A stretch of 18,048 nt of DNA from Candidatus Poribacteria bacterium (GCA_016215705.1 JACRIR010000010.1:1-18048); one strand, 5' to 3'. Shown: positions 1-18,048, numbered from the stretch's first letter. The notes: generated by a model not told the origin, from the letters alone. Translations and numbers: made by a program.

Positions 1-123
1 CGCCTCGACTACAACCAGTACCGGCCACACAGTTCCCTCGGCGACCTGACCCCCGAGGAGTTCGCCAACCAAGACCGGGTCAGACAACCTGAACCGCGGA
101 ATCCGAACCTACAGGTGGCATGA
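1..123 (+). CDS. IS3-family transposase OrfB, C-terminal 40 residues (partial at window edge)
   Basis: Frame 1 is open from the window edge to a TGA at 121-123. It reads RLDYNQYRPHSSLGDLTPEEF and continues to ...NPNLQVA. The YN-x-RPHSSLG-x-LTPxEF signature is the end of the DDE (rve) integrase domain in IS3-family transposases, around and just after the catalytic glutamate region. This is the strand-transfer protein of the insertion sequence; in IS3 elements it is normally made by -1 frameshifting from OrfA. Upstream parts are outside the window. The stop codon overlaps an ATG at 120 (ATGA), which opens the next reading frame. Confidence 0.88.
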   Translation, partial: RLDYNQYRPHSSLGDLTPEEFANQDRVRQPEPRNPNLQVA

Positions 124-140
124 GGAATGGGGGAAGGTCA
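1..140 (+). mobile_element. Right end of an IS3-family insertion sequence (partial, left flank)
   Basis: The first 140 bases recur exactly, in reverse complement, at 17908-18047. They contain the end of an IS3-type transposase reading frame and finish in ...GGTCA at base 140. The outward-facing terminal repeat therefore begins TGACCTTCCCCC, and a TG...CA terminus is usual for IS3 elements. Identity between the two copies stops at base 141, which defines the element boundary. Only the 3' end of the element lies in the window. The target duplication cannot be tested because the other ends are outside. Confidence 0.85.
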
Positions 141-4567: not shown

Positions 4568-6046
4568 CTACCGCACCGGCAGGCCACGAAGCCCGTCAAG
4601 CAATACGCGCGTCGCGCGGCAGTCGTCCTCGTTGTAGTCGAGGATACGCTGTTTGACGGCAGGGTCGCTGCTTTTGACCCACCTGTCGAACCACTCGATC
4701 GAAGCCGCGCCGGAGGGATGCGCGTCGCGCCACGCGAACCCCAGGTACTTGGCGAGCGTCTTGATGGAATAATCCTTGGTGGGCCACTCACTTTGCTTGC
4801 GCACGACATCAAAGTAGAGATCGACCGCGTCGCCGAATAGCGTCTCGATCTCGTCCGCGGTGCAGACCTCTGGGTGCTTCTGCTGGAGCTTGCGCCAGAT
4901 CGTGCGTTCGTACTTGGAGTAATAGTAAACCGCGGCATCGGGATTGCCCCGCAAGTACGCCCACGCCTGCGCGAATGCGGCTTTCTCGGACGCGGCCGTC
5001 GGCTCGTCGGCGAAGAAGGCGACGTAGCGCTCGGTCGCATTGTCTCCGCCGCGGCGCCCCACGAACCCGTGCAGGTAGCAGACATCGCGCATCGGGTCGA
5101 CCTCGATGTCGAAGAAGATCTCGACCTCGCGCGCAGGCAACGTCAGGGGAGCTTTGAGATAGGGTTTGGGATCGGACGAAACGACGAGTGCCGCACGCTC
5201 CTTGAGCTTCGCGAGCACGTCGGGGCCGATGCCCTCGAATACCGTTTTCTTTCCTCTCCGGCAGGCATCGATGTCGATGCGTGCGAGATCCGCGATGGTC
5301 CTCGCGTGCGATGCGAGAGCACTGCGTTTCGAGCGTCCCAGTTCCGGCAACAGGGTGAGGTCGTTCGCGGCCGTGAGGTCGTCCAGGCAGGCCGTGTACC
5401 AGTGGCACTGCTTGCACACCGCGCCATACGCGGGCGCCGTTTTGCTTGTATGGCCGGTGATCGCCTTGGCCTCGGCCAGACATCCGGCATAGACATCCCA
5501 CATCGACTCGGGTGTCCTGGGACCCAGCAGCGCGGCAAGGTCGTATGGCACTTCCTCCCCGTGTATGTCCCAGACGAATCCGCGCCGCCCGGCCGAAAGG
5601 CCGAGCCGTTCGAGAATATTGGTATAGAGCGCGAGCTGCACCCCGTAGTGTTTCTTGAGCTTGCCGTCCTCGTCGCCCCCTTCCTCGCCCGAACCCGACT
5701 TGATGTCGCCCGGGACGTAACCCTGGCCCTCCCGCCGAAGGAGGTCGGGGTCACCGAGTAGTCCGTCCGCGCTGATACGCCCGCCGTAAATAAGCGGTTC
5801 CCCGTGCGCCATGGCCTCCCGGGTTAGCTTCTCCTTCTCGTCACCGCGATAGATCGAAAGGTCCAGGAACGGAATGTCGAGCCCTGAGATTACTTCTTTC
5901 TCGTACAGGTTGCCCCGTTCCCACAGGAGCTGAATGAAAGGGTTAACCGGATCCCGTCGCGCCGGGTCGGTGAAGAGGTCCATGGAAACCCGATGCGGGC
6001 AGTGCACCAGGTCATAGAGGATGCTTGCAGTGACGAGAATGGGCAT
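4568..6046 (-). CDS. TM0106-family RecB-like nuclease with a C-terminal RNase H-like domain
   Basis: The 492-aa protein fits the TM0106 family in length and order. The N-terminal half is a Cas4/RecB-type nuclease: GDPDLL with D101, VPGDIKSG with D114 and K116, then a helix QLALYTNIL. Cysteines C16 (HCPHR) and C211, C214, C220 (CKQCHWYTAC) are placed as in the 4Fe-4S cluster of Cas4 and AddB. A helix-hairpin-helix-like stretch follows (about 262-282, GIGPDVLAKL). The C-terminal half is a YprB/DnaQ-like RNase H-fold exonuclease: FFDIE with D313 and E315, AVDLYFD with D408, and YNEDDCRAT with D474/D475. It probably processes DNA ends in repair or defence; the substrate is not known for the family. 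AAGGAAA precedes the ATG. The KTSC gene follows. GC appears higher than in flanking genes. Confidence 0.9.
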   Translation of the reverse strand: MPILVTASILYDLVHCPHRVSMDLFTDPARRDPVNPFIQLLWERGNLYEKEVISGLDIPFLDLSIYRGDEKEKLTREAMAHGEPLIYGGRISADGLLGDPDLLRREGQGYVPGDIKSGSGEEGGDEDGKLKKHYGVQLALYTNILERLGLSAGRRGFVWDIHGEEVPYDLAALLGPRTPESMWDVYAGCLAEAKAITGHTSKTAPAYGAVCKQCHWYTACLDDLTAANDLTLLPELGRSKRSALASHARTIADLARIDIDACRRGKKTVFEGIGPDVLAKLKERAALVVSSDPKPYLKAPLTLPAREVEIFFDIEVDPMRDVCYLHGFVGRRGGDNATERYVAFFADEPTAASEKAAFAQAWAYLRGNPDAAVYYYSKYERTIWRKLQQKHPEVCTADEIETLFGDAVDLYFDVVRKQSEWPTKDYSIKTLAKYLGFAWRDAHPSGAASIEWFDRWVKSSDPAVKQRILDYNEDDCRATRVLLDGLRGLPVR

Positions 6047-6657: not shown

Positions 6658-7389
6658 ATGCCGTCCCCCAACAAGCCTGAATACACCGGCCCCCTACTCA
6701 GCGTCTTGGCATACCTTGCGTCAAGCCGTGGCAGCCGCTTAACCAAGATACGGCTGGTCAAGTTCCTCTATCTCTTCGACCTGTTCTGGGCCCAGTCCCA
6801 AAAACGCACCTTCACAAACTGGCCGTGGGCGTTCGTGCACTACGGCCCCTACTGCCGCGAAAGCACGAACGCGATCGATCTCGCCGAAAAAACTGGATAC
6901 CTGGTCGCGGAGGCCTACGAGTCTCGCTATCGCGACGAGGATTTCCGCCTCTATGGTCCCGGCAGCAGGATTACCGAGGCGGATGTCGATCGGCTCCTGA
7001 ACGACATGCCGATATACGTGTCATCGCGTCTCCAAGGGGCTGTGAAGCGATGGTATGACGATACCTATGGGCTATTGGACTACGTGTATTTCCACACCGG
7101 CCCGATGGCGAACGCGCATCCAGAAGAAACGCTCTCCTTCGCTAACGAAGAGATGCTGAACATGGAAGAGCTTCGCCCCGTGAAGATGTTGGCCTTAACT
7201 AACAACAAGAAGCGCACGCTGCAGGAGGCGATCAAGAAGATCGCGATAGCGAACCAAGCGCCTGGTCAGCCCTCCGAAATCTTTGACCAAGAATACTTCG
7301 ACTTCATCTCGAACATCGCCGGCGCGGAAACGGAAACAGGAATATCCGGCGTCGCGAAGCTGAGCTTCGAACGATCGTCGGATGATTGA
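6658..7389 (+). CDS. Panacea (SocA-like) domain protein, putative antitoxin
   Basis: The 243-aa product has the Panacea/SocA-like signature near its N-terminus: LLSVLAYLASSRGSRLTKIR (about residues 13-32), then LVKFLYLFDLFW, then FVHYGPYCRE (about 64-73). Panacea proteins (formerly DUF4065) are found as promiscuous antitoxins next to diverse small toxins, and the related SocA is a ClpXP adaptor. The C-terminal 80 residues are acidic and polar and could carry the toxin-neutralising part; this is inference. The stop overlaps the next gene by 8 bases (ATGATTGA), a typical antitoxin-toxin linkage. The ribosome site before the ATG is poor. Repeats and a candidate -10 box precede the gene. Some members of this subgroup have no proven antitoxin role, so the function is tentative. 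Confidence 0.72.
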   Translation: MPSPNKPEYTGPLLSVLAYLASSRGSRLTKIRLVKFLYLFDLFWAQSQKRTFTNWPWAFVHYGPYCRESTNAIDLAEKTGYLVAEAYESRYRDEDFRLYGPGSRITEADVDRLLNDMPIYVSSRLQGAVKRWYDDTYGLLDYVYFHTGPMANAHPEETLSFANEEMLNMEELRPVKMLALTNNKKRTLQEAIKKIAIANQAPGQPSEIFDQEYFDFISNIAGAETETGISGVAKLSFERSSDD

Positions 7390-8098
7390 AGAAATTCTCG
7401 ACGGCGTTTTCGAAAAAGCATCAGGGGTTGGAGTTGGCCACCTTGTTCGGTGTCCCGTACCACACCTTGATGAGGTCCCGCGAATCCTTGAGGTCGAGCG
7501 AGCCTCCAGCGAAGCGCATTACGCCTCGAAGTTCAGGGTCGTGGAGATGGATGGCGGCCACTTCAGGTCCAAGCAGAAATTGCCAATTAAGGCGCTCTCT
7601 CTTCATGACACCGAGGAGCTACTTATCTCGAAGGCAAAGAAAAGACCCTGCGTAGTAGTGGCGTGCCATAACACATCATTCAAAGACACCGTGGCTACTG
7701 CCGAGATCAAAAAGCGGCGACACTTACAGGATAATTCGATGATGCTCGCGCCTCTCTACGGTACCGCATCACCAGAGGACGTCGGAGGATTTCCACCAAA
7801 GATGGTCGCCCGCATAAGAGCATTTCTCTACAACCAGTTTTTTTACCTCCCGAAGACCTGTCCGAAAACGAAGGTCAGCCTCGAGAAAGAGAGCATCGTA
7901 CGCCTCGACAGACTCTTCCCGGCATCGCCCAACAGGGGGGTTGAAACGATGGATATAAAGCTGTCGGCCGAGGCTTTGGCGCTTCTTACAGCCATGCTTC
8001 GTGAACGCTTCGGTGCACCTCCGGACGAGAACCTCACCACCGTTCGACAGATACTGTACGAAACTTTGCCTGAGGATTGCCGCCCCAAGCCGGGGTGA
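7382..8098 (+). CDS. PemK/MazF-like putative toxin partner of the Panacea protein
   Basis: The 238-aa protein overlaps the Panacea gene by 8 bases and is surely co-translated. The middle resembles the SH3-like barrel of PemK/MazF ribonucleases: KKRPCVVVACHNT (about 86-98), an inner strand MMLAPLYGT (about 120-128), and ESIVRLDRLFPA (about 169-180), which matches the usual final strand of the form G-x-V-x-x-D-Q-x-x. It is about twice the length of ordinary MazF, with an extra N-terminal region of about 80 residues and a C-terminal helix. If the assignment holds, it would cleave RNA and be held inactive by the upstream protein. The similarity is by eye and modest. The alternative is an uncharacterised partner of the same family pair. 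Confidence 0.55.
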   Translation: MIEEILDGVFEKASGVGVGHLVRCPVPHLDEVPRILEVERASSEAHYASKFRVVEMDGGHFRSKQKLPIKALSLHDTEELLISKAKKRPCVVVACHNTSFKDTVATAEIKKRRHLQDNSMMLAPLYGTASPEDVGGFPPKMVARIRAFLYNQFFYLPKTCPKTKVSLEKESIVRLDRLFPASPNRGVETMDIKLSAEALALLTAMLRERFGAPPDENLTTVRQILYETLPEDCRPKPG

Positions 8099-9527: not shown

Positions 9528-9806
9528 ATGAAGAAGCTAATCGCCGTTCTTGGACTGGCGTTGATTGTCTTCGCAGGCGCCGTGTCCGCGGATCAATCCG
9601 TTCGCGGTTACTACCGCAACGACGGCACGTACGTGCAGCCACACTATCGTTCATCCCCCGATCGCTCCTACAACAACAACTGGAGCGTATCGCCCAACGT
9701 CAACCCCTACACGGGCGAACAGGGGACGCGTCAGCCTACCTATAACGACCGTCCTCCGAGCAATGGTTTGGGTAATGACTACTACAACGGGAATCGACGG
9801 CGCTGA
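9528..9806 (+). CDS. Small secreted protein with a GYYRNDGTYV repeat-like motif
   Basis: The 92-aa protein has a clear Sec signal peptide (MKKLIAVLGLALIVFAGAVSA, cleavage likely after residue 21). The mature part is rich in Tyr, Asn, Pro and Gly. It contains VRGYYRNDGTYVQPHYRSSPD followed by a VNPYTGEQGTRQ stretch, the pattern of short exported proteins of unknown function in many proteobacteria. No enzyme motif or lipobox is present. The start is firm: GGAGGAG lies 2-8 bases before the ATG. It converges with the leftward envelope operon, 46 bases away. Confidence 0.8.
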   Translation: MKKLIAVLGLALIVFAGAVSADQSVRGYYRNDGTYVQPHYRSSPDRSYNNNWSVSPNVNPYTGEQGTRQPTYNDRPPSNGLGNDYYNGNRRR

Positions 9807-9810
9807 TTAA

Positions 9811-9858
9811 GGGTAAGGGCTGAGGCTTTCTTGCACGGGATCGGCGCTGCCCTCACCC
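9811..9858. terminator. Long-loop inverted repeat between convergent genes
   Basis: GGGTAAGGGC (9811-9820) and GCCCTCACCC (9849-9858) pair with a single mismatch, between the ends of the secreted-protein gene and the leftward operon. The loop is 28 bases and no T-tract follows. It may be a bidirectional transcription stop, but the evidence is thin. Confidence 0.25.
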
Positions 9859-10290
9859 ATCGGTGTGGATTCCGATTTTGACGGCCCACCATTTCCACTT
9901 CGGCACGTAGCGGACCGAGTCAAAAACATCCTGGTTCAGAGCGGCATTCCGAATCTCGTCGCGGAACTCGCTATCGGTCATCGACAGCCGGCCGCTCCTG
10001 TTCTTGTACCAGCACTCCCAGTTCCTGCGGTCGTGCACGGTGCAATCCGTAAGCGTGGTTGGCGCCCCGGTGTCCGGCCGATATTCGACTTCCTGCCGAT
10101 CCGTGGATGCCTGATAGGTGATCGGCGGCAGATTGATGCACGGGCCATGGTCGCCTAAGTCCTTCCCGCAGTAGACCGGATACACCGTGATCCCGGGGAA
10201 GATGGGAATCAGGTCGAAGAGCCACAATGAGGGGGCGGCCAACAAAAGAAGCGTCATGGCGAACCCGATCACCTTATTGTTTCTTCTCAT
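9853..10290 (-). CDS. Membrane-anchored or secreted extracytoplasmic protein (last gene of envelope operon)
   Basis: Not a recognised family. From ATG 10290 the product is 145 aa. It has a basic start (MRRNNK), one hydrophobic helix (VIGFAMTLLLLAAPSLWLF, about residues 7-25) and an extracytoplasmic domain with four cysteines (YCGKDLGDHGPC, TDCTVHDRRNWECWYKN). These probably form disulphides in the periplasm. The helix acts as a signal or an anchor. ATG starts at 10326 and 10311 are in frame but would put 7-12 polar residues before the basic stretch; the 10290 start gives a normal signal. It is downstream of the SLATT-like gene by 82 bases, with a small hairpin between. Confidence 0.65.
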   Translation of the reverse strand: MRRNNKVIGFAMTLLLLAAPSLWLFDLIPIFPGITVYPVYCGKDLGDHGPCINLPPITYQASTDRQEVEYRPDTGAPTTLTDCTVHDRRNWECWYKNRSGRLSMTDSEFRDEIRNAALNQDVFDSVRYVPKWKWWAVKIGIHTDG

Positions 10291-10354
10291 CGTGCCACCA
10301 ACCGAATCCATGGCGCAGGCACTCACGCAGAAAATCGCGGATTAGCCGAAACCC

Positions 10355-10371
10355 TCGTCGCGCAACGACGA
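10355..10371. other. Intergenic hairpin inside the envelope operon
   Basis: TCGTCG (10355-10360) and CGACGA (10366-10371) form a perfect 6-bp stem with loop CGCAA. It lies directly after the stop of the SLATT-like gene and before the last gene of the operon. It could be a partial terminator or an mRNA-processing/stability element that lowers expression of the last gene. Confidence 0.35.
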
Positions 10372-10372
10372 A

Positions 10373-10900
10373 CTACGCGGGGCGTGGGGTGAAGTTGAAA
10401 AAGTGGGCAAGCAACCGTTGGTACAGCGGGACACGCACGACTCGTCCCGCGTTACCAGTGGCGATGGCCAACTCGTTCTGGCATAGCGTCACGAGCGCGC
10501 CCAAAGCCGCTGGTTCGTCGGTCTCGAGCAGGCGGGTTTTTGCATCCCACATCTTGATATCGTCCTCGGTAAAATCCCGCTCGCCACGCCCGACAATTTC
10601 GGACTCAAGCTGCCGGAAATCGCGGGAAAGCCCGGCGTGACGCCTCGACCGGTCGGAAAGACTAAACACCAGGGCTATTGTCGAAGACACCGTGATGATG
10701 GCGGCGATGGTTTTGACACCATTCTCGCCGGCAAAACTCGCGAATGCGGCGGATCCGCCAATGACCGCAACCGCTTTGGCGAGCTTGTCGCACACCTCGA
10801 AGAAGCGCTCGCGTTTCTGATGGTAGAGCACGGACAACTCGATCCGATAAAGGATCGAGTGGCGCTTTTCCCAAAGATAGTTTTGTTCGGTATCGCTCAT
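10373..10900 (-). CDS. SLATT-like two-helix membrane protein
   Basis: The 175-aa protein has an N-terminal amphipathic helix (LWEKRHSILYRIELSVLYHQKRERFFEVCDKL, residues 9-40). Two hydrophobic helices follow (KAVAVIGGSAAFASFAG, about 42-58; TIAAIITVSSTIALVFSL, about 64-81), then a long helix (RRHAGLSRDFRQLESEIV). This order resembles SLATT-domain proteins, predicted pore-forming effectors that accompany nucleotide-sensing and other conflict systems (Burroughs and colleagues). Here the partners are not NTases but small membrane and secreted proteins. The role may be pore formation or signalling at the inner membrane. The ATG lies immediately after the stop of the proline-rich small gene (TGAAATG), so translation is coupled. 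The SLATT assignment is by eye and moderate. Confidence 0.62.
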   Translation of the reverse strand: MSDTEQNYLWEKRHSILYRIELSVLYHQKRERFFEVCDKLAKAVAVIGGSAAFASFAGENGVKTIAAIITVSSTIALVFSLSDRSRRHAGLSRDFRQLESEIVGRGERDFTEDDIKMWDAKTRLLETDEPAALGALVTLCQNELAIATGNAGRVVRVPLYQRLLAHFFNFTPRPA

Positions 10901-10901
10901 T

Positions 10902-11063
10902 TCACTTCTTCCCCGGCGGGCGTGTTGGAGTTGGGGTTATGGGCACACGCGGAGTCACGGTTTCCCTTGAGCCTGGCACGCCCTCCCTGAACGGGACGCC
11001 ATGGTCCTTTCGGACGGGGGTGGGCGGCGGTGTCGGTGGAGCTTTAGGGTTCTTGTCGGTCAT
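10902..11063 (-). CDS. 53-aa proline-rich small protein
   Basis: This gene is short but well supported. ATG 11063 opens MTDKNPKAPPTPPPTPVRKD and the frame ends in RPPGKK at a TGA (10902-10904) that abuts the next ATG. A ribosome-like GGGGGAC precedes the start. About a quarter of residues are proline, with basic residues between, so it is probably disordered and could bridge partners. No signal peptide or membrane helix is present. It sits between the secreted 317-aa protein gene (20 bases away) and the SLATT-like gene, both on the same strand with tight spacing. That is the main reason to believe it is real. Function unknown. Confidence 0.62.
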   Translation of the reverse strand: MTDKNPKAPPTPPPTPVRKDHGVPFREGVPGSRETVTPRVPITPTPTRPPGKK

Positions 11064-11083
11064 CTTGCTGTCCCCCTTGCGTC

Positions 11084-12037
11084 TTAGATTCGCTCGCAGG
11101 CATTGTCCTTGTAAAGCCCCACCACGATGATCTCGTAGGGCAGGCTCCAGCGCAGCGCATCGGGCCGGCTCTTGGCGTTGCGCGCGCGCCAGGACACCAG
11201 CGCCAAGTCGATGCGCGGGATGCCGAGCACGTGCAGGCAGCCGCCTTCCTTGAGGCCCTTCACCGCCTCGGCCGGGGCGCTGCCCTCGACGAACACCATG
11301 CGGCGGTTCCTGACCACGAGCTCGCCGTCGTCCACGTCGTGCACCGTGGCCTTCGCGAGGTAGCCGTCCTCGACCTTGTGCGGGGCCTCGCTCAACTCCA
11401 GCAGGAACTCGACGTAGTTGTACCCGGCCATGTTGGTAACGAGGGTGGTGATCGTCTTGCCCGGGATGATCTGGGACTTGGTGATCTCGTAGCGGTGGAA
11501 GGCGGGTCCGGCGTCCTTCGCCTTGTAGCCGGCGATGGGCTTGAGAGTCTCCGCGACCGACAGGTCGTCGAGCTTCGTCACCGGATGAATCTCGAAGACG
11601 TGGTCGGGGTTCGAGGTCGTGAACGGCGCGAGCTTCTTGCCCTGGACCTGCTCGGAGTCGCCGCCGTGCTCGGTCCAGATGCGCCAGGCGCCGGCTAGGG
11701 AAACCTTCTCACTCGTCCCTTCGAGGCCGTGAATCTTGGCGACCGCCTGCGGCACCGAGGCGGCGTTCATGATCTCGGCGACGATGGGCAGCCCCACTTC
11801 CGGCGCGCGCCCGGCGATGTGCAGGTCGCCGTCCTTGGATGCGGGGTTGGGCTTCTTGTGGGCCTTGTCGACGGTGAAGCTGGCGGTGATGGTGGCGCGG
11901 TTCTTGTACTTCTCGATGAAGGTGTTCTTGAGGGTGATGGTGGTTTCGGCCCATGCGCCCAGGGGCAGGAGGCCGATGAATACCAGGAAAAGGGAAATTA
12001 CGAAAAGCCGGACTACCGGTGCGTTACGTCCCTGCAT
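11084..12037 (-). CDS. Secreted protein of unknown function (317 aa)
   Basis: A Sec signal peptide is clear: MQGRNAPVVR, hydrophobic core LFVISLFLVFIGLLPLG, cleavage probably after AWA (residue 29 or 30). The mature part begins ETTITLKNTFIEKYKNRATITASFTVD and looks beta-rich with alternating strands, without cysteine pairs until C284 and C314 near the end. I do not recognise the family. Segments such as IHGLEGTSEKVSLAGAWRIW and YEITKSQIIPGKTITTLV suggest an immunoglobulin-like or sandwich fold. It probably acts in the periplasm or outside the cell. AGGAG, overlapping the stop of the preceding HEPN-like gene (10-base gap), serves the ATG, so the genes are coupled. Confidence 0.78.
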   Translation of the reverse strand: MQGRNAPVVRLFVISLFLVFIGLLPLGAWAETTITLKNTFIEKYKNRATITASFTVDKAHKKPNPASKDGDLHIAGRAPEVGLPIVAEIMNAASVPQAVAKIHGLEGTSEKVSLAGAWRIWTEHGGDSEQVQGKKLAPFTTSNPDHVFEIHPVTKLDDLSVAETLKPIAGYKAKDAGPAFHRYEITKSQIIPGKTITTLVTNMAGYNYVEFLLELSEAPHKVEDGYLAKATVHDVDDGELVVRNRRMVFVEGSAPAEAVKGLKEGGCLHVLGIPRIDLALVSWRARNAKSRPDALRWSLPYEIIVVGLYKDNACERI

Positions 12038-12047
12038 GTTCGTCTCC

Positions 12048-12596
12048 TCAGGAGGTTAGTTTTTTCACTGCATCGATTGCGCGATTGCCAGAGCCAAGCA
12101 GCCCTTCTTCGGCCGCCAAGATTTCACGAAAATCCATTTTCTCATCAGCTGCCTTATACAGATGGATTGTGTTCCGATGATCTTTTAACGTTTTGACATC
12201 ATCCCACACCGCAGCAAGATCCCTTGCACTAGATTTCTCCCACGCTTCGACTAGCGCCCCGAATGTTCTGTGTCTTTCGTTTTTCGGAAGATCGTATTTC
12301 CGCTGCTCTGCGTGGGCGCGCAACGCGGCCTCGACAATAGAAGCAGACACAAGCACAGCCGCTTTAATGGCGCCGGCCCTGACAGAGTGATTGAGTTTTC
12401 CCACGATCACCTTTCCGTTACTGTCCCTCCACTGAAAACAAAGGCTGTCCAACAAGTACTTGTGGAACGCCAAATACTGGGACTCCACCACAATCATGCT
12501 TTTAATTCGCGTATCGGGAATATTCGACCATTCCTCATCGATGTCTCGAAGCCCAGGTATCGAGAAGGATCGTGGGTCCAAATAGAAATCGGTCAT
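12048..12596 (-). CDS. HEPN-like helical protein (182 aa)
   Basis: The start is ATG 12596, not the longer open frame, because the upstream part only shadows the 43-aa gene whose stop overlaps this ATG (ATGA). The product MTDFYLDPRSF... is all-helical. A helix VRAGAIKAAVLVSASIVEAALRAHAEQR is followed by DLAAVWDDVKTLKDHRNTIHLYK. The RNTIH element placed after an acidic helix resembles the Rx3-6H active site of HEPN-superfamily proteins (many have RNLIHP at this spot), which are often RNases in defence and toxin systems. Spacing is at the short end (R-x3-H), so catalysis is uncertain. It may instead be a non-catalytic HEPN-like scaffold. It is cytoplasmic, unlike its operon partners. Confidence 0.62.
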   Translation of the reverse strand: MTDFYLDPRSFSIPGLRDIDEEWSNIPDTRIKSMIVVESQYLAFHKYLLDSLCFQWRDSNGKVIVGKLNHSVRAGAIKAAVLVSASIVEAALRAHAEQRKYDLPKNERHRTFGALVEAWEKSSARDLAAVWDDVKTLKDHRNTIHLYKAADEKMDFREILAAEEGLLGSGNRAIDAVKKLTS

Positions 12597-12724
12597 TTGA
12601 CGAAGAAACGGTGCTCGAAAAGAAGCGAGAGAGAGCGCTCGATGAAGAAGGACAGGACGACGATGGCGGCCAGGATCTCGGCCAGGACTTCCCAGTCCAT
12701 ACGGAACAGTGACGGATCTTCCAT
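12593..12724 (-). CDS. 43-aa single-helix membrane protein, first gene of envelope operon
   Basis: ATG 12724 follows a strong ribosome site (GGGAGG, 6 bases upstream). The frame reads MEDPSLFRMDWEVLAEILAA, continues with IVVLSFFIERSLSLLF and ends EHRFFVK at TGA 12593-12595. The hydrophobic stretch (residues about 13-36) with acidic residues before and basic residues after predicts one membrane helix. The stop overlaps the start of the HEPN-like gene by 4 bases. The strong ribosome site, the ATGA overlap and the membrane pattern make this a real gene despite its size. It may anchor the HEPN-like protein or be a small membrane effector. Confidence 0.68.
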   Translation of the reverse strand: MEDPSLFRMDWEVLAEILAAIVVLSFFIERSLSLLFEHRFFVK

Positions 12725-13099: not shown

Positions 13100-14104
13100 C
13101 TAGTTGATGCTGTGATGAAAAGGACTGAACGACTCTTTCGGTTTATCGAGAAAGACCTTATTCAACAAGGGCAGCGCTTCTCGACCGGAACTGGAGCCGA
13201 GGCTGCGCAACTCTTCGATCATATCGACCGTATCGACATCAAACATACCGCGCGCAACCGTTGGCGAATAACGGAACAGCCTCGGGTCGCTTTCGGTGTG
13301 TCCGATAAGAAGCTTCGCTGCGCCGATTGCGCCTTTACACTGACCCTGAAGGAACAAGTCGCCTGCCGCCGCCAAAAGTAGGTTCTTGCCGCCGGCTCGC
13401 GGTGGGACTGACCACGTTTCTTCCGTGCAGCCAAGGCTGAGGATATTGATGCGCTCCCGATCCCGATTGAGCACACCGACCGTCTCCACGGCTGCGATAC
13501 CCACAGGATTGTTTGCCCATACCCCTCCGTCGATCAGCGCAGCACCATTTGGCATCCGGTGACTGGGGAAATAAGTCGGCGCAGCCGCGGTGGCCAATGC
13601 AATGTCGACAACCCGCTGTTTCCAATCCGTCTGAAAACGCGGGTTATGAGCTGTCTTGAACACGTATACTTCGCGGCGCAGAGCGTGGTAAGCCGGGATA
13701 ACGAGACGTGTTTGGCTCTCCCCAAGGATCCGTGCGCCGAATGCCTCGGTGAGTGCTTGCCGCAGTCGATCGGGGTCATACTTAGGCATGACTACATGAC
13801 GAGCGCTACGCAACCATTTTCTCGTTACCGCCCGCGCACGGCCCCAGACCGACGATGGAGACGGATGTTGGTAAAAAATCGCCGGCCCCTTGTTAAGGTA
13901 GAAGTCCAGAATTTCACGAGCAGAGAGGCCAAGGCCGAGCCCGATGGCAATGATTCCGCCTGTCGAGGTCCCTGCGATGACGTCAAAGTGATCGACGATG
14001 CGTTTGCCGGTGGCGGTTTCTGCTTCGGCCAAGAATGCAGCCGGCAGCACACCCTTGATCCCGCCGCCATCGATCGAAAGTACGCGTGTAATACCATCAC
14101 TCAT
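13100..14104 (-). CDS. capV: CapV patatin-like phospholipase, CBASS effector
   Basis: The 334-aa protein has all patatin landmarks. The oxyanion loop is DGGGIKG (residues 12-18). The nucleophile elbow is GTSTG with Ser47 (45-49). The catalytic Asp is in IDGG with Asp192 (191-194). CapV effectors are activated by a cyclic dinucleotide from the partner CD-NTase and then degrade membrane phospholipids, killing the infected cell. No signal peptide is present, as expected for a cytosolic enzyme that attacks the inner membrane. The gene follows the E2-like gene with an 8-base overlap, and GAGGTG precedes the ATG. It is the third and last gene of the CBASS operon. Family and role are secure; the activating nucleotide is not visible in the sequence. 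Confidence 0.93.
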   Translation of the reverse strand: MSDGITRVLSIDGGGIKGVLPAAFLAEAETATGKRIVDHFDVIAGTSTGGIIAIGLGLGLSAREILDFYLNKGPAIFYQHPSPSSVWGRARAVTRKWLRSARHVVMPKYDPDRLRQALTEAFGARILGESQTRLVIPAYHALRREVYVFKTAHNPRFQTDWKQRVVDIALATAAAPTYFPSHRMPNGAALIDGGVWANNPVGIAAVETVGVLNRDRERINILSLGCTEETWSVPPRAGGKNLLLAAAGDLFLQGQCKGAIGAAKLLIGHTESDPRLFRYSPTVARGMFDVDTVDMIEELRSLGSSSGREALPLLNKVFLDKPKESFSPFHHSIN

Positions 14105-14528
14105 CGTTCACCTCGGGATGTTCTCCGCCACCCTTCCACTCATTCGTCAGAAGCCATTCTTCAAAAAAGAACAGCCACAAATACGTCCACGGCACGATCG
14201 TCGCGGCGATCAACAAATCCGGGGACCACTCTCCGGTGCACGGCAGATATAGACAAAGGCGGGGCGGATCGCCTGGATAGGTGTGGGGTAGCTTCCGTTC
14301 GCCGGCAAGAGTTTGCAGGTCAGGGTCGATAACGCGTGCCTCGGGAACCGATTGTTCCTGGTACTGGATCCTCACGCGGTACGTGCGACTCAAAGGGCTG
14401 GGCGTTGCCGGAAATTGCCAGACCAGATTGCGACGGTGCAACGTTCCGTCCCCTCTGCTGATGGAATTGTGCCTCAGAAAGAAATACTGCTGTGCGGCAG
14501 ATAGATGACGTTTGTGATAACCAACCAA
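14097..14528 (-). CDS. Stand-alone E2-like conjugating protein of type II-short CBASS
   Basis: The 143-aa product matches the bacterial E2-like family of type II CBASS: NLVWQFPATPSPLSRTYRVR (about 34-53), then LPHTYPGDPPRLCLYLP with candidate catalytic Cys92 (80-96), then EWSPDLLIAATIVPWTYLWL and EEWLLTNEWKGGGEHP. In full type II systems an E1-E2 fusion (Cap2) attaches the CD-NTase C-terminus to targets. In short systems an E2 alone, without E1 or the JAB peptidase, primes the CD-NTase. No E1 or JAB gene is present here. The start is TTG 14528 with GGTAGGT 5 bases upstream; no ATG is in frame near the domain start. It lies 11 bases after the CD-NTase gene and overlaps capV by 8 bases. Confidence 0.88.
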   Translation of the reverse strand: MVGYHKRHLSAAQQYFFLRHNSISRGDGTLHRRNLVWQFPATPSPLSRTYRVRIQYQEQSVPEARVIDPDLQTLAGERKLPHTYPGDPPRLCLYLPCTGEWSPDLLIAATIVPWTYLWLFFFEEWLLTNEWKGGGEHPEVNDE

Positions 14529-14539
14529 TCAGCACCTAC

Positions 14540-15730
14540 CTATCCGCCGAAGAAGGTGTTGGACCGGACCGCCACACCGCGATCGCGCCCAACCGTAAGC
14601 CCCAACCCCGGCGCCACTGACAGCAACCCTCCCCGGCGCGCCGAGGTGACCATACCAGTCAGTCGCGCAACAGCTGGGGTCACGATGTTTTCACCGAACG
14701 ACTCGGAAAGCGATTTTCCAAGCTGGTCGATGCCCCGGAGCTCCTGAACGTCGGCGAGAGCCTTAAGCAGCGCAGAATGCCAGTCGAAGAATGCTACGAC
14801 CAGGCGAGGGTCGGTGTTCCATTTGTCGGCGAAGTTTTCGCCCGATGTCGTTTCATTCGGTATCAGGTAATAGGTACGTCCATCGTGTGCCTGGTGCTCG
14901 ATGAACAGCGGCATCGCCATCACGACATCGATAAGAAGGGCAAGCTCCGAGGAATAGGGTTTCGCTCGAGCACAATGGGCGTAGCTCCATGCCGCAAGCG
15001 TTGTGAGAATAATGGAAACCGGCGCCAGATCGCGATCACGCGTCAGAAAATGAATATCGCGATGGCGCTTACAGATTTGAACAATCAACTGAAGCGTATT
15101 TTTCCCGCCGCCCTGAGGGAGCGGCTCAACCGTTGCGCGTTTCCGGGCCTCGGCAAATTGAACTTCGAAACTTGGTTCGATTGCCGCGTACTGTTCAAAT
15201 CGGGCTCGATACCCCTTCGGGTTGGTCGGTTTCCACTCACGCAGCTTTTTGTCCGGTACGAGTTCGCCGCCGTTGCTGCATTCGGGGTTCGGGATCGACG
15301 GTGTAATGTCCAGATGAAACTCACCGGCATAGTTGAGCCGCCAGCAGCGCTGCTTCTCTTTGAGCATTTCTGCGTACCCGGCGTTTTGCCGGAGCCGCTC
15401 GCCAACCAGATGTTTGACCGCCCACGGTTGGGTGGTCCGCGTGACGTGAGCAAGATGGCAAATCAGGTCAACATCGAACTCGTTTGAGCCAATCGGCTTG
15501 GTCGCGGTTCCAAGCGCGATTGAGCCTTGAGGCGAAATCACTGCCAACTCGAGCTCCGGTGCGGCCCCACCGGCAATCCAATTGCCGACCGCTTCGTATC
15601 GCGACTGCGCCGTCTCGCGCTGCGTTTCGGTAAGATCAAGTTCATGCCCGATCAGCTGCAGCAGCGTCATGCGCTCAATATTGCTGCCCTGGGGCTGAGC
15701 AAAGGTCATTTGTACGGCATTTTGGCTCAT
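14540..15730 (-). CDS. CD-NTase (cGAS/DncV-like nucleotidyltransferase) of CBASS
   Basis: From ATG 15730 (GGAGA 7 bases upstream) the product is 396 aa; a longer open frame exists but adds an unlikely Cys-rich leader. The nucleotidyltransferase signature is intact: G69-S70 in SPQGSIALGT, the metal-binding pair D86-x-D88 in SNEFDVDLI, and D141 in FHLDITPSIP. It should make a cyclic di- or trinucleotide on phage infection to activate CapV. The protein ends SNTFFGG, a C-terminal Gly-Gly like a ubiquitin tail. This fits conjugation by the neighbouring E2-like protein through the C-terminal glycine, as described for type II CBASS. The exact CD-NTase clade and product cannot be read by eye. It is the first gene of the leftward operon, facing the capH/capP pair. 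Confidence 0.93.
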   Translation of the reverse strand: MSQNAVQMTFAQPQGSNIERMTLLQLIGHELDLTETQRETAQSRYEAVGNWIAGGAAPELELAVISPQGSIALGTATKPIGSNEFDVDLICHLAHVTRTTQPWAVKHLVGERLRQNAGYAEMLKEKQRCWRLNYAGEFHLDITPSIPNPECSNGGELVPDKKLREWKPTNPKGYRARFEQYAAIEPSFEVQFAEARKRATVEPLPQGGGKNTLQLIVQICKRHRDIHFLTRDRDLAPVSIILTTLAAWSYAHCARAKPYSSELALLIDVVMAMPLFIEHQAHDGRTYYLIPNETTSGENFADKWNTDPRLVVAFFDWHSALLKALADVQELRGIDQLGKSLSESFGENIVTPAVARLTGMVTSARRGGLLSVAPGLGLTVGRDRGVAVRSNTFFGG

Positions 15731-15801
15731 GATGGGTTCTCCGCTATTGGCACCACAGGCGCCTTTGTTCTTGCATTGGCTAGGGACTGGTGCCATACTC
15801 C

Positions 15802-15818
15802 TTGTCCGATATGGGCAA
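15802..15818. promoter_or_regulatory. Second putative CapH operator (imperfect 17-bp dyad)
   Basis: TTGTCCGATATGGGCAA has half-sites TTGTCC and GGGCAA, one mismatch from a perfect dyad. It matches the 15878-15894 site at 13 of 17 positions. Both dyads are 17 bp long and have the same outer bases. It lies about 70 bases upstream of the CD-NTase start, in its leader or promoter. Confidence 0.5.
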
Positions 15819-15877
15819 CGGCACAAATCACCACATATATCGTTTCATACTTGCTATATTGGTCTATTCGCTGTTAA

Positions 15878-15894: not shown

Positions 15895-15936
15895 CACAAG
15901 ATTAAATGACTTGAATCCGCTTTGTCAAGGAGTCGT

Positions 15937-16314
15937 ATGGCTGCGTCCGCTTTAGGCGTTTTGTTGCGGTATTTGCGGGAGGAAAGACGATTTTCGCTTC
16001 GGGAACTGGCACAGTTCGCCGAGGTAGACCATGCGTACGTGTATCGCTTAGAAACTGGTGAGAAGGAATCGCCATCCGACGAGGTCCTCGCCCGGCTGGT
16101 TAAGGTCCTCAAACCGGATACGCGTCACGTCGAAATGCTGCGTTTTCTTGCAAAAAATCCAGGCCTAGACCCAGCGTTGACGGAGTACGCCATGAAAGAA
16201 CCAAGCGTGATTTTTGACGAGTTCATGCCAGCAGCAACAATGCGTCATCGCGGCAACATTAGGCCCGATCCGAAGACGCTTATTGAGCGAGTACGCAAGT
16301 TCCTAAAGGAGTAG
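15937..16314 (+). CDS. capH: Xre-family repressor of the CBASS locus (CapH-like)
   Basis: The 125-aa protein starts MAASALGVLLRYLREERRFSLRELAQFAEVDHAYVYRLETGEKE, a standard Xre helix-turn-helix (about residues 6-60; recognition helix near HAYVYRLETG). A helical C-terminal part follows, with a linker after about residue 75. ATG 15937 is chosen over TTG 15922 because AAGGAG lies 4 bases upstream. In CapH/CapP-controlled CBASS an Xre repressor holds the operon off until the partner protease cleaves it. Its divergent position next to the CBASS operon, the partner gene 5 bases downstream and two dyads in the shared promoter all fit. The name rests on context and architecture rather than on a computed alignment. 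Confidence 0.78.
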   Translation: MAASALGVLLRYLREERRFSLRELAQFAEVDHAYVYRLETGEKESPSDEVLARLVKVLKPDTRHVEMLRFLAKNPGLDPALTEYAMKEPSVIFDEFMPAATMRHRGNIRPDPKTLIERVRKFLKE

Positions 16315-16319
16315 TCCAC

Positions 16320-17183
16320 ATGGACGAACTTACAGCGGCGATCAGGGCCCGCGAGTTAGTCCAACGCGTGAACACAAATTCGATCCCTGTTCAAGTAGAG
16401 CCGTTCCTCGCTGTCCTTAGATGCGAATTGAAGGTCGATAACGAGATGGGCCCTCACGAGGCTGGATACTGCTTGAGCAAAAGCGGCAAGCACGTCATCG
16501 TTGTTAACGGCAAGGATTCACCCGAACGGCAACGATTCACCACATTCCACGAAATGGGCCACATCGATTTAAAGCTTCCTTCAGAGCACGCGGGCAGCCC
16601 CTCGTGGAGTTACAACAACCGTTCGGCGAACGAGATTTGCTGCGACACTTACGCGGCCGAGATCTTGTTACCGCATCGATTTTTTAAGCCATTAGTCGAC
16701 AGCGCCGATATAGGGATGGCCGCTTTGGATGACTTGGCTGAGAAGTTTGAGGCGTCGGTAACAGCGACAGGTTCGAGGTTTGCGTCAACCACTAACGCTC
16801 CCTGTGCTTTTGTAGTTTCCGAAAACGGAATGGTCAGATACACCGTAATATCGAAAGCGCTGAGGGAAGTCCGTGCCTGGATTACGCGCGGAATGGCCGT
16901 TCCGTCAGGGTCATCGACCGCATTGATTAGCAACGGCCAATCCGTGAAGGACCCGCAGGAAATTGCTGCAGATGTTTGGTTCAATGACTGGCGCCGAGGT
17001 GGTGTATTACTTGAGGAGGCGCGTTATTTACGCAACTACGATCAGACGCTCACGCTCCTTTGGTTTGAAGACGAAGAGGTGCCGCACAAGCCTAGCACTG
17101 ACAATAATGGTGAGGATGGCGAAATGGGACTCAAGGAATTGGACGGCATCCTCCCTTGGCCAGGAAAGCGACGTCGCCGGTAA
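16320..17183 (+). CDS. capP: ImmA/IrrE-family metalloprotease (CapP-like)
   Basis: The 287-aa product carries the gluzincin motif HEMGH (residues 77-81) in RFTTFHEMGHIDL, followed by SANEICCDTYAAEILLP, where E105 is the expected third zinc ligand. Paired with an Xre repressor this is the ImmA/IrrE (COG2856/M78) arrangement. In CBASS it is called CapP, which is switched on by ssDNA and cleaves CapH. Cysteines C107/C108 beside the active site could act as the cysteine switch described for CapP; this is inference. The C-terminal half (about 140-250) is a ligand-sensing-like domain, ending in a basic tail (KRRRR). AAGGAG precedes the ATG and only 5 bases separate it from the Xre gene, so the two form one operon. 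Confidence 0.85.
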   Translation: MDELTAAIRARELVQRVNTNSIPVQVEPFLAVLRCELKVDNEMGPHEAGYCLSKSGKHVIVVNGKDSPERQRFTTFHEMGHIDLKLPSEHAGSPSWSYNNRSANEICCDTYAAEILLPHRFFKPLVDSADIGMAALDDLAEKFEASVTATGSRFASTTNAPCAFVVSENGMVRYTVISKALREVRAWITRGMAVPSGSSTALISNGQSVKDPQEIAADVWFNDWRRGGVLLEEARYLRNYDQTLTLLWFEDEEVPHKPSTDNNGEDGEMGLKELDGILPWPGKRRRR

Positions 17184-17238: not shown

Positions 17239-17928
17239 TCACGGCCCAAGAATTGACGTCCCAATGTTCAGCAAATCTCGCTCGGCACGATCTTGCGCCT
17301 TGAATGCCGCCTTAACTTTTCTCTCCACCTTTTTCTGGTTATCCAACGAAGTCGGTTTTGGAATCGGAAGATCGAGAAGGACCTCCACGTTTTGAACACG
17401 GGTCCGGTTTGAAGTACCGGTAACTGTGCCCTCTATAATTTCGCGCATCTGCCTCGAACGCAACACCGCTGCTAGGTATTCCGGCAAAGCGCGGTAACGC
17501 ACTCCTTTCTTTGGCCTCAGGGTGAAGTATTCTTTGGATACAACTAGGTCATTACAATTCTTGTGTACCGTTCCGACAGACCCGTTTACAAAATCGATTC
17601 CGGATACGAGCAGGTCTCCAGACTTAACCACGCGCAGATCCTTTGACTCGTACGAGGTTGTCGTCTCTTCCTTGAAACGGACACGACCATCCACGCGCGA
17701 GACAGTGGCGAAACGGTAAATTTCCTGCTCGTCCGGTAGTCGAACTACATTCTCGACGACCTCGCCCAAGCGAACGGTTTCCTTCGCTTTGGAAATAAGA
17801 TCCTTCATGCGGTGGTAGGCAAAGTCTATTCGCATCTCGGGGTTTTTCGGATCGAGCTCGTAGGCCCAGAATTTCCTCTGATACCCCTCGAACTTCTTCA
17901 GGCGAGCTGACCTTCCCCCATTCCTCAT
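17239..17928 (-). pseudogene. Type I-like DNA specificity (HsdS/TRD) fragment, 5' truncated by the IS
   Basis: The frame opens at an ATG inside the right IS end, so its first seven residues (MRNGGRS) are identical to those of the left-flank gene. Native sequence starts about ARLKKFEGYQRKFWAYELDP at 17907. The rest reads like a type I target-recognition domain: VRLGEVVENVVRLPDEQEIYRFATVS, SGDLLVSGIDFVNGSVGTVH, then GTSNRTRVQNVEVLLDLPIPKP and a coiled-coil helix at the end (DNQKKVERKVKAAFKAQDRAE). This order (TRD, then the IPxP motif and a helical spacer) is typical of HsdS half-subunits and of methylase-specificity fusions. Only about 220 native residues remain, and the methylase part, if any, is missing. 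It is probably inactive in DNA modification. It converges on the capP-like gene. Confidence 0.68.
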
Positions 17929-18048
17929 GCCACCTGTAGGTTCGGATTCCGCGGTTCAGGTTGTCTGACCCGGTCTTGGTTGGCGAACTCCTCGGGGGTC
18001 AGGTCGCCGAGGGAACTGTGTGGCCGGTACTGGTTGTAGTCGAGGCGC
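17908..18048 (-). mobile_element. Right end of the same IS3-family element, inverted copy (partial)
   Basis: Bases 17908-18047 are identical to the reverse complement of 1-140. Both copies point their 3' ends inward, so the 17.8 kb between them is bracketed by inverted elements. Identity ends abruptly at 17907, the insertion junction in the HsdS-like fragment. Confidence 0.85.
17925..18047 (-). CDS. IS3-family transposase OrfB, C-terminal 40 residues (partial, right flank)
   Basis: This is an exact reverse-complement copy of bases 1-123, reading leftward into the window and ending at TGA 17925-17927. It is the second copy of the same transposase end. Confidence 0.88.
   Translation of the reverse strand, partial: RLDYNQYRPHSSLGDLTPEEFANQDRVRQPEPRNPNLQVA

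Follow-up and report, generated by a model that had tools for sequence, protein, structure and literature searches.

The stretch of DNA analysed here, referred to as the window, is a whole contig of 18,048 bases from the 5.47 Mb genome of a Candidatus Poribacteria bacterium (GCA_016215705.1, JACRIR010000010.1). Six minus-strand open reading frames (ORFs) lie at 9853-12724; along that strand they encode a 43-residue one-helix protein, a HEPN-like protein, a 317-residue secreted protein, a 53-residue proline-rich protein, a two-helix membrane protein of SLATT-like shape and an anchored extracytoplasmic protein of 157 residues. The ORF coordinates bear out the layout given in the original prediction, in which the first five genes are joined by overlaps or gaps of 1-20 bases: the 43-residue ORF overlaps the HEPN-like gene by 4 bases (ATGA), and gaps of 10, 20 and 1 bases separate the HEPN-like gene from the 317-residue gene, the latter from the 53-residue gene, and this from the two-helix gene. 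The 82 bases then given to the last ORF hold for an ATG at 10290, the distance to the GTG start being 46 bases. A complete operon of a cyclic oligonucleotide-based antiphage signalling system (CBASS) lies 375 bases upstream, as expected of the proposed defence island. The stretch behind this type II-short CBASS is a composite of unrelated parts, with no single conserved six-gene system; the only conserved unit in the cluster is the proline-rich gene together with the gene for the two-transmembrane (two-TM) protein, which form a mobile, translationally coupled cassette.

An alignment of the two-TM protein with a relative from a Klebsiella plasmid yielded 39 relatives in viral contigs, and the enlarged alignment then led to 21 genome loci, mostly in named Beta- and Gammaproteobacteria, plus one distant genome (G234); the hosts range from Gallionella and Burkholderia to Pseudomonas and Klebsiella. 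The counts given here are of retrieved loci, among which are close relatives, and viral contigs and genomes were scanned with short peptide patterns; the counts do not amount to a prevalence. The closest relatives of the window protein, in three viral contigs and in elements of Gallionella, Methylobacillus and Nitrosomonadales, are 61-65% identical to it, and it retains all 13 residues that never vary in the family alignment.

The proline-rich partner that had been predicted for the two-TM protein proves to be a real, coupled gene. At 49 of 52 loci, the window included, a proline-rich ORF of 50-66 residues abuts or overlaps the start of the two-TM gene, the commonest overlaps being 4 or 20 bases. 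The small proteins have a median length of 61 residues, with P, R, D, S, K and N abundant and few aromatic or aliphatic residues, and carry in their last 15-30 residues a tail such as VVDTLSPPPRP, VSNTLPPPPP or VAPRDPAPPAP (TVTPRVPITPTPTRPP in the window). Between relatives, the ratio of nonsynonymous to synonymous substitution rates (dN/dS) is 0.06-0.42 in the small gene. In the membrane gene it is 0.03-0.23 for the comparisons that allowed a value, with one near-identical pair left out, and purifying selection is thus indicated on both. This selection and the co-occurrence at nearly every locus together show that the 53-residue ORF is a genuine gene and a nearly constant partner, and coding is well supported for both members of the pair, even though the small ORF is unannotated in phage TC7 and in the Klebsiella plasmid. 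By profile match the two proteins belong to PHROG families 11791 (two-TM) and 27674 (small, a link made through the Klebsiella homologue only), which are catalogued apart, with no function given and the pairing unstated.

Near-identical copies of the Klebsiella version were not found in E. coli genomes. A further 38 Klebsiella plasmid records give matches of 80-95% identity, among the matches listed over part of the query only; one copy that was inspected (L092, 6001-6328) is flanked by insertion sequence (IS) elements and appears degraded.

Table 1. Genes of the six-ORF cluster and of the neighbouring CBASS operon, in window coordinates.
Feature	Position	Strand	Evidence
53-aa proline-rich, apparently disordered partner; C-terminal end ...TVTPRVPITPTPTRPPGKK	10902..11063	-	conserved family, purifying selection
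175-aa two-TM protein, SLATT-like shape, prophage family phrog_11791	10373..10900	-	phrog_11791, E 3e-32
182-aa HEPN-like protein (RNTIH), probably a separate mobile gene	12048..12596	-	45% identical relative, RNxxH kept
43-aa one-helix protein, ATGA overlap with HEPN-like start	12593..12724	-	strong ribosome-binding site, one TM
317-aa protein with Sec signal peptide, GC3 0.91	11084..12037	-	good ribosome-binding site
157-aa (145-aa from ATG 10290) membrane-anchored extracytoplasmic protein	9853..10326	-	ORF in window
CBASS patatin-like phospholipase effector	13100..14104	-	NF041079 CBASS_lipase 230 bits (cut-off 200); Pfam Patatin; PADLOC Effector
CBASS E2-like protein, no E1 seen	14097..14528	-	PADLOC E2, E 2e-52
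CBASS CD-NTase (nucleotidyltransferase)	14540..15826	-	Pfam SMODS 58.8 bits; PADLOC Cyclase, E 2e-110
Divergent CapH/CapP-like pair: helix-turn-helix (HTH) regulator 15922-16314, capP-type protease 16320-17183	15922..17183	+	capP, E 3e-52; Peptidase_M78; HTH families

Co-occurrence of the gene order had been set beforehand as the test of a six-gene system, and the outcome goes against it. When the other four proteins were compared by tblastn (E up to 0.01) with 62 loci of the two-TM gene, including 5-8 kb of flanking sequence where the contig allowed, not one locus carried the 43-residue, HEPN-like, 317-residue or 157-residue gene. As the loci were retrieved through the two-TM gene, this shows what travels with that gene and not what travels with the other four.

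The pair is found in several kinds of mobile DNA, usually temperate phages (Mu-like, lambdoid and others), in which it often comes right after the lysogeny repressor. Phage repressors are the commonest family upstream of it, with phrog_4 accounting for 16 of 67 upstream proteins in sets made by simple longest-ORF gene calling, some members of which are not genes (examples are loci L005, L008, L010 and L049), and many of the loci are bordered by Mu-type transposases and Mu-like head genes. Lambdoid phage TC7 has 'repressor protein C', the small ORF and the two-TM gene in that order, so that the pair stands where rexAB does in lambda. At one locus (L013) the pair adjoins an integrase, it is also present on the Klebsiella plasmid, and in the distant genome G234 it follows genes that, by reading of their sequences, appear TnsC/TniB- and TniQ-like. 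In the upstream and downstream protein sets, both from this simple gene calling, AbiEi/AbiEii, a ThsA-like gene, a PifA-like NTPase and PDC-S (a PADLOC candidate) families occur near the pair at single loci.

In an AlphaFold model built from 26 sequences (predicted local distance difference test, pLDDT, 90), the two-TM protein is predicted to form helices at residues 3-49 and 59-104, separated by a short turn and followed by short helices. The hydropathy maxima of the family fall at residues 40 and 63, and both ends of the protein should thus be cytoplasmic. The model and the hydropathy together point to the SLATT shape, that is, a two-TM hairpin with long flanking cytoplasmic helices. SLATT proteins are described as two-TM effectors that are predicted to form membrane pores and that occur in defence contexts (Burroughs et al., as cited in PMC7159879), and DRT10 defence requires SLATT proteins (PMC12632851). 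These effectors pair with a nucleotide-signal enzyme or a reverse transcriptase, whereas the constant partner here is the proline-rich protein; a search for CBASS proteins placed them upstream of the pair in the window only. The resemblance to SLATT proteins that was noted originally stays as one of shape. At the sequence level SLATT_1 was touched by only 4 of the 26 family members (best E 0.014) and SLATT_6 by one (0.093), all of them weak matches, and a profile-profile comparison with ten SLATT_1-profile hits, eight of them above the Pfam cut-off, gave a probability of 1.2%, SLATT_1 being the only SLATT family compared in this way. A search with the model retrieved generic helical bundles only, among them a NINJ1 chain (Z 8.8) that falls within the helical background, and no solved structure was close to it.

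A CI repressor precedes the genes of both RexAB of lambda and RexABpp of Pseudomonas putida, and the two systems work via a membrane partner (PMC12894663); they share with our pair the arrangement of two genes behind a lysogeny repressor, with the soluble protein preceding the membrane protein. The prophage systems gp30/gp31 of Butters and Sbash (PMC7542560) are likewise two-component exclusion systems with a soluble and a membrane part; their membrane protein spans the membrane four times and their soluble protein is larger, they belong to another host group, and they are likened here by description and not by sequence. By analogy with the Rex-type systems, which sit behind a repressor and have a membrane partner, and with the need for SLATT proteins in DRT10, exclusion or abortive infection would be the most likely role. 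We thus suggest, with a probability of about 0.5, that the pair is an undescribed two-gene exclusion or abortive-infection module expressed in lysogens, in which the disordered partner gates a SLATT-shaped two-TM effector. The pair would be made in lysogens, or constitutively in the CBASS island, and the hairpin and long cytoplasmic helices of the two-TM protein would mediate its assembly in the inner membrane. The proline-rich protein might bind the cytoplasmic part through its conserved tail and either hold the effector shut or license it; an infecting phage would disturb this interaction, whereupon the two-TM protein could open or disrupt the membrane and the infection would be aborted in the fashion of RexAB. 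We are more tentative about the stronger version, namely that the pair represents an undescribed and widespread class of temperate-phage exclusion in which the direct gate of a SLATT-shaped membrane pore is a disordered protein of ~60 residues whose proline tail is conserved. The pair was not found in PADLOC, its PHROG families carry no function, and the literature searched, with partial coverage, held no matching prophage exclusion pair of a two-TM and a proline-rich protein.

Several points weigh against an exclusion module of this type. The first transmembrane helix is only weakly hydrophobic (mean 1.32); membership of the SLATT family is unconfirmed by sequence, and the window protein has no Pfam match at cut-off. 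RexB-type membrane partners have four transmembrane segments (PMC12894663, PMC7542560) as opposed to two here, and RexA is folded and binds DNA, while a partner of 50-66 residues is far too small and disordered for a DNA-sensing RexA; the pair thus has neither a four-TM RexB nor a folded RexA. It is a two-gene unit downstream of a phage repressor at the repressor loci, but the window copy has no adjoining repressor. Finally, several Mu-like prophages have lysis genes immediately behind the pair, so that a role in lysis is conceivable.

The alternative that fares best, although we regard it as unlikely, is a pair of toxin-antitoxin type, with the two-TM protein as membrane toxin and the proline-rich protein as antitoxin, serving mainly the maintenance of prophages and plasmids and not exclusion. 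The small gene comes first and is translationally coupled, both genes are under purifying selection, and the carriers include prophages, plasmids and a transposon, all of which would suit such a pair; on the other hand, exclusion accounts better for the linkage to a lysogeny repressor and to defence genes, and the small protein has no match to a DNA-binding or antitoxin family in Pfam or PHROGs. Somewhat less probable still are genes for lysis timing or lysogenic conversion in Mu-like phages, holin-like or envelope-modifying, which would have been carried elsewhere by chance. Several Mu-like prophages do have the pair on the same strand between the repressor and a transglycosylase/endolysin module, but in TC7 it stands directly behind the repressor, away from any lysis gene, the Klebsiella element has another small membrane gene adjoining its transglycosylase, and the pair also occurs in the CBASS island, next to an integrase and in what reads as a TniQ-type transposon.

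The operon next to the cluster fits type II-short CBASS, with a CD-NTase, an E2 without E1 and an effector, and has a divergent CapH/CapP pair; the six ORFs are no part of this CBASS type. That they are nonetheless accessory components of it, acting as extra effectors that answer the CBASS cyclic nucleotide, appears very improbable to us: they lie on the same strand directly downstream of the CD-NTase-E2-patatin genes, but the CBASS already has an effector, the gap of 375 bases is followed by a fresh ribosome-binding site, and no CBASS protein was found at the other loci of the two-TM gene. We give the least credence to one envelope-spanning defence system of six genes, which the tight spacing and common strand in the window had suggested and which the co-occurrence test largely refutes, since none of the other four genes accompanies the pair at any other retrieved locus, the HEPN-like gene travels without the rest of the cluster, and the G+C content at third codon positions (GC3) spreads from 0.55 to 0.91 within it. 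The earlier reading is in all partly supported, including its statement that no named system has this gene order.

If our suggestion of an exclusion module is correct, a minimal version of ~230 residues in two genes has gone unrecognised in many Mu-like and other prophages of Beta- and Gammaproteobacteria, and prophage exclusion, in the Rex position, would be linked to the two-TM effectors of cellular immunity. The pair is small enough to be tested by cloning. The window also illustrates that closely spaced genes in a defence island, for all their look of an 'operon', can be pieced together from parts that move independently.

The HEPN-like gene appears to be such a part. Its coding is well supported by a 45% identical relative in another genome (G588), the only confident one among some 500 other genomes, with four short weak matches left aside. 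This relative sits in an integron cassette array that has ten attC-like repeats where none are expected and an integrase for which IntI4 is the best match of solved structure (E 2e-93). There it belongs to a two-gene cassette (L073, 8800-9831, minus strand) in which a gene for a 148-residue exported protein, different from the genes of the window, precedes it by 18 bases and attC-like repeats flank both; the other five cluster genes are absent. Judged by this cassette with its different neighbour, the gene seems to be mobile alone or with varying neighbours, and we take it as a separate mobile gene of probable defence type. No relatives were found in plasmids, phages, viral contigs or the 19 pair-carrying genomes, a limited search that is weak evidence of absence. 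The HEPN likeness is by motif only and stands in that sense: RNTIH and RNFVH, the form kept in both relatives, are RX3H and not the RX4-6H of HEPN proteins, the protein has no Pfam match at cut-off, to HEPN or otherwise, and no PDB sequence match, and a single-sequence model (pLDDT 43) was too poor for a fold search.

The 43-, 317- and 157-residue genes are local accessory genes, to which no role is assigned. The 317-residue gene is plausibly coding, given its GC3 (0.91, compared with 0.55-0.70 for the HEPN-like, 53-residue and two-TM genes), signal peptide and good ribosome-binding site, while the 43- and 157-residue ORFs are putative genes read from the window itself. No relatives of the 317-residue protein were found in plasmids, viral contigs, 369 genomes of one class, two genomes of the same family or PDB sequences, of the 157-residue ORF in plasmids or viral contigs, or of the 43-residue protein in plasmids, PHROGs or the loci of the two-TM gene; the coverage of these searches was limited and uneven, which makes absence weak evidence, and vertical conservation is hardly testable with only three genomes of this phylum in the set searched. 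Promoter and terminator scans gave signals at or below shuffle level, and an RNA family search gave none within the six-ORF cluster.

The two ends of the contig carry identical 140-base inverted repeats (window 1-140 and 17908-18047), and the translated contig end RLDYNQYRPHSSLGDLTPEEFA reads like what we take to be the C-terminus of an IS3-type transposase; presumably, either two inverted IS copies bound the island, or the assembly broke at them. Just beyond the cluster, a 92-residue exported protein is encoded at 9528-9806 on the plus strand (phrog_29674, E 3e-20), a relative of which lies near the two-TM gene in Burkholderia sp. Leaf177 (L058). On the same strand, at 6658-8098, a 243-residue protein with a weak, below-cut-off match to the SocA/Panacea antitoxins has an 8-base overlap with a 238-residue ORF, possibly forming a toxin-antitoxin pair. 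A tRNA match of 62.9 bits at 1252-1352, also on the plus strand, is unreported by ARAGORN; its anticodon loop, CUUAUAA, contains UAU, which would read AUA as Ile, and its variable region holds ~29 inserted bases. On the minus strand, 4568-6046 encodes a 492-residue protein with an RNase_H_2 domain (Pfam, 90 bits).

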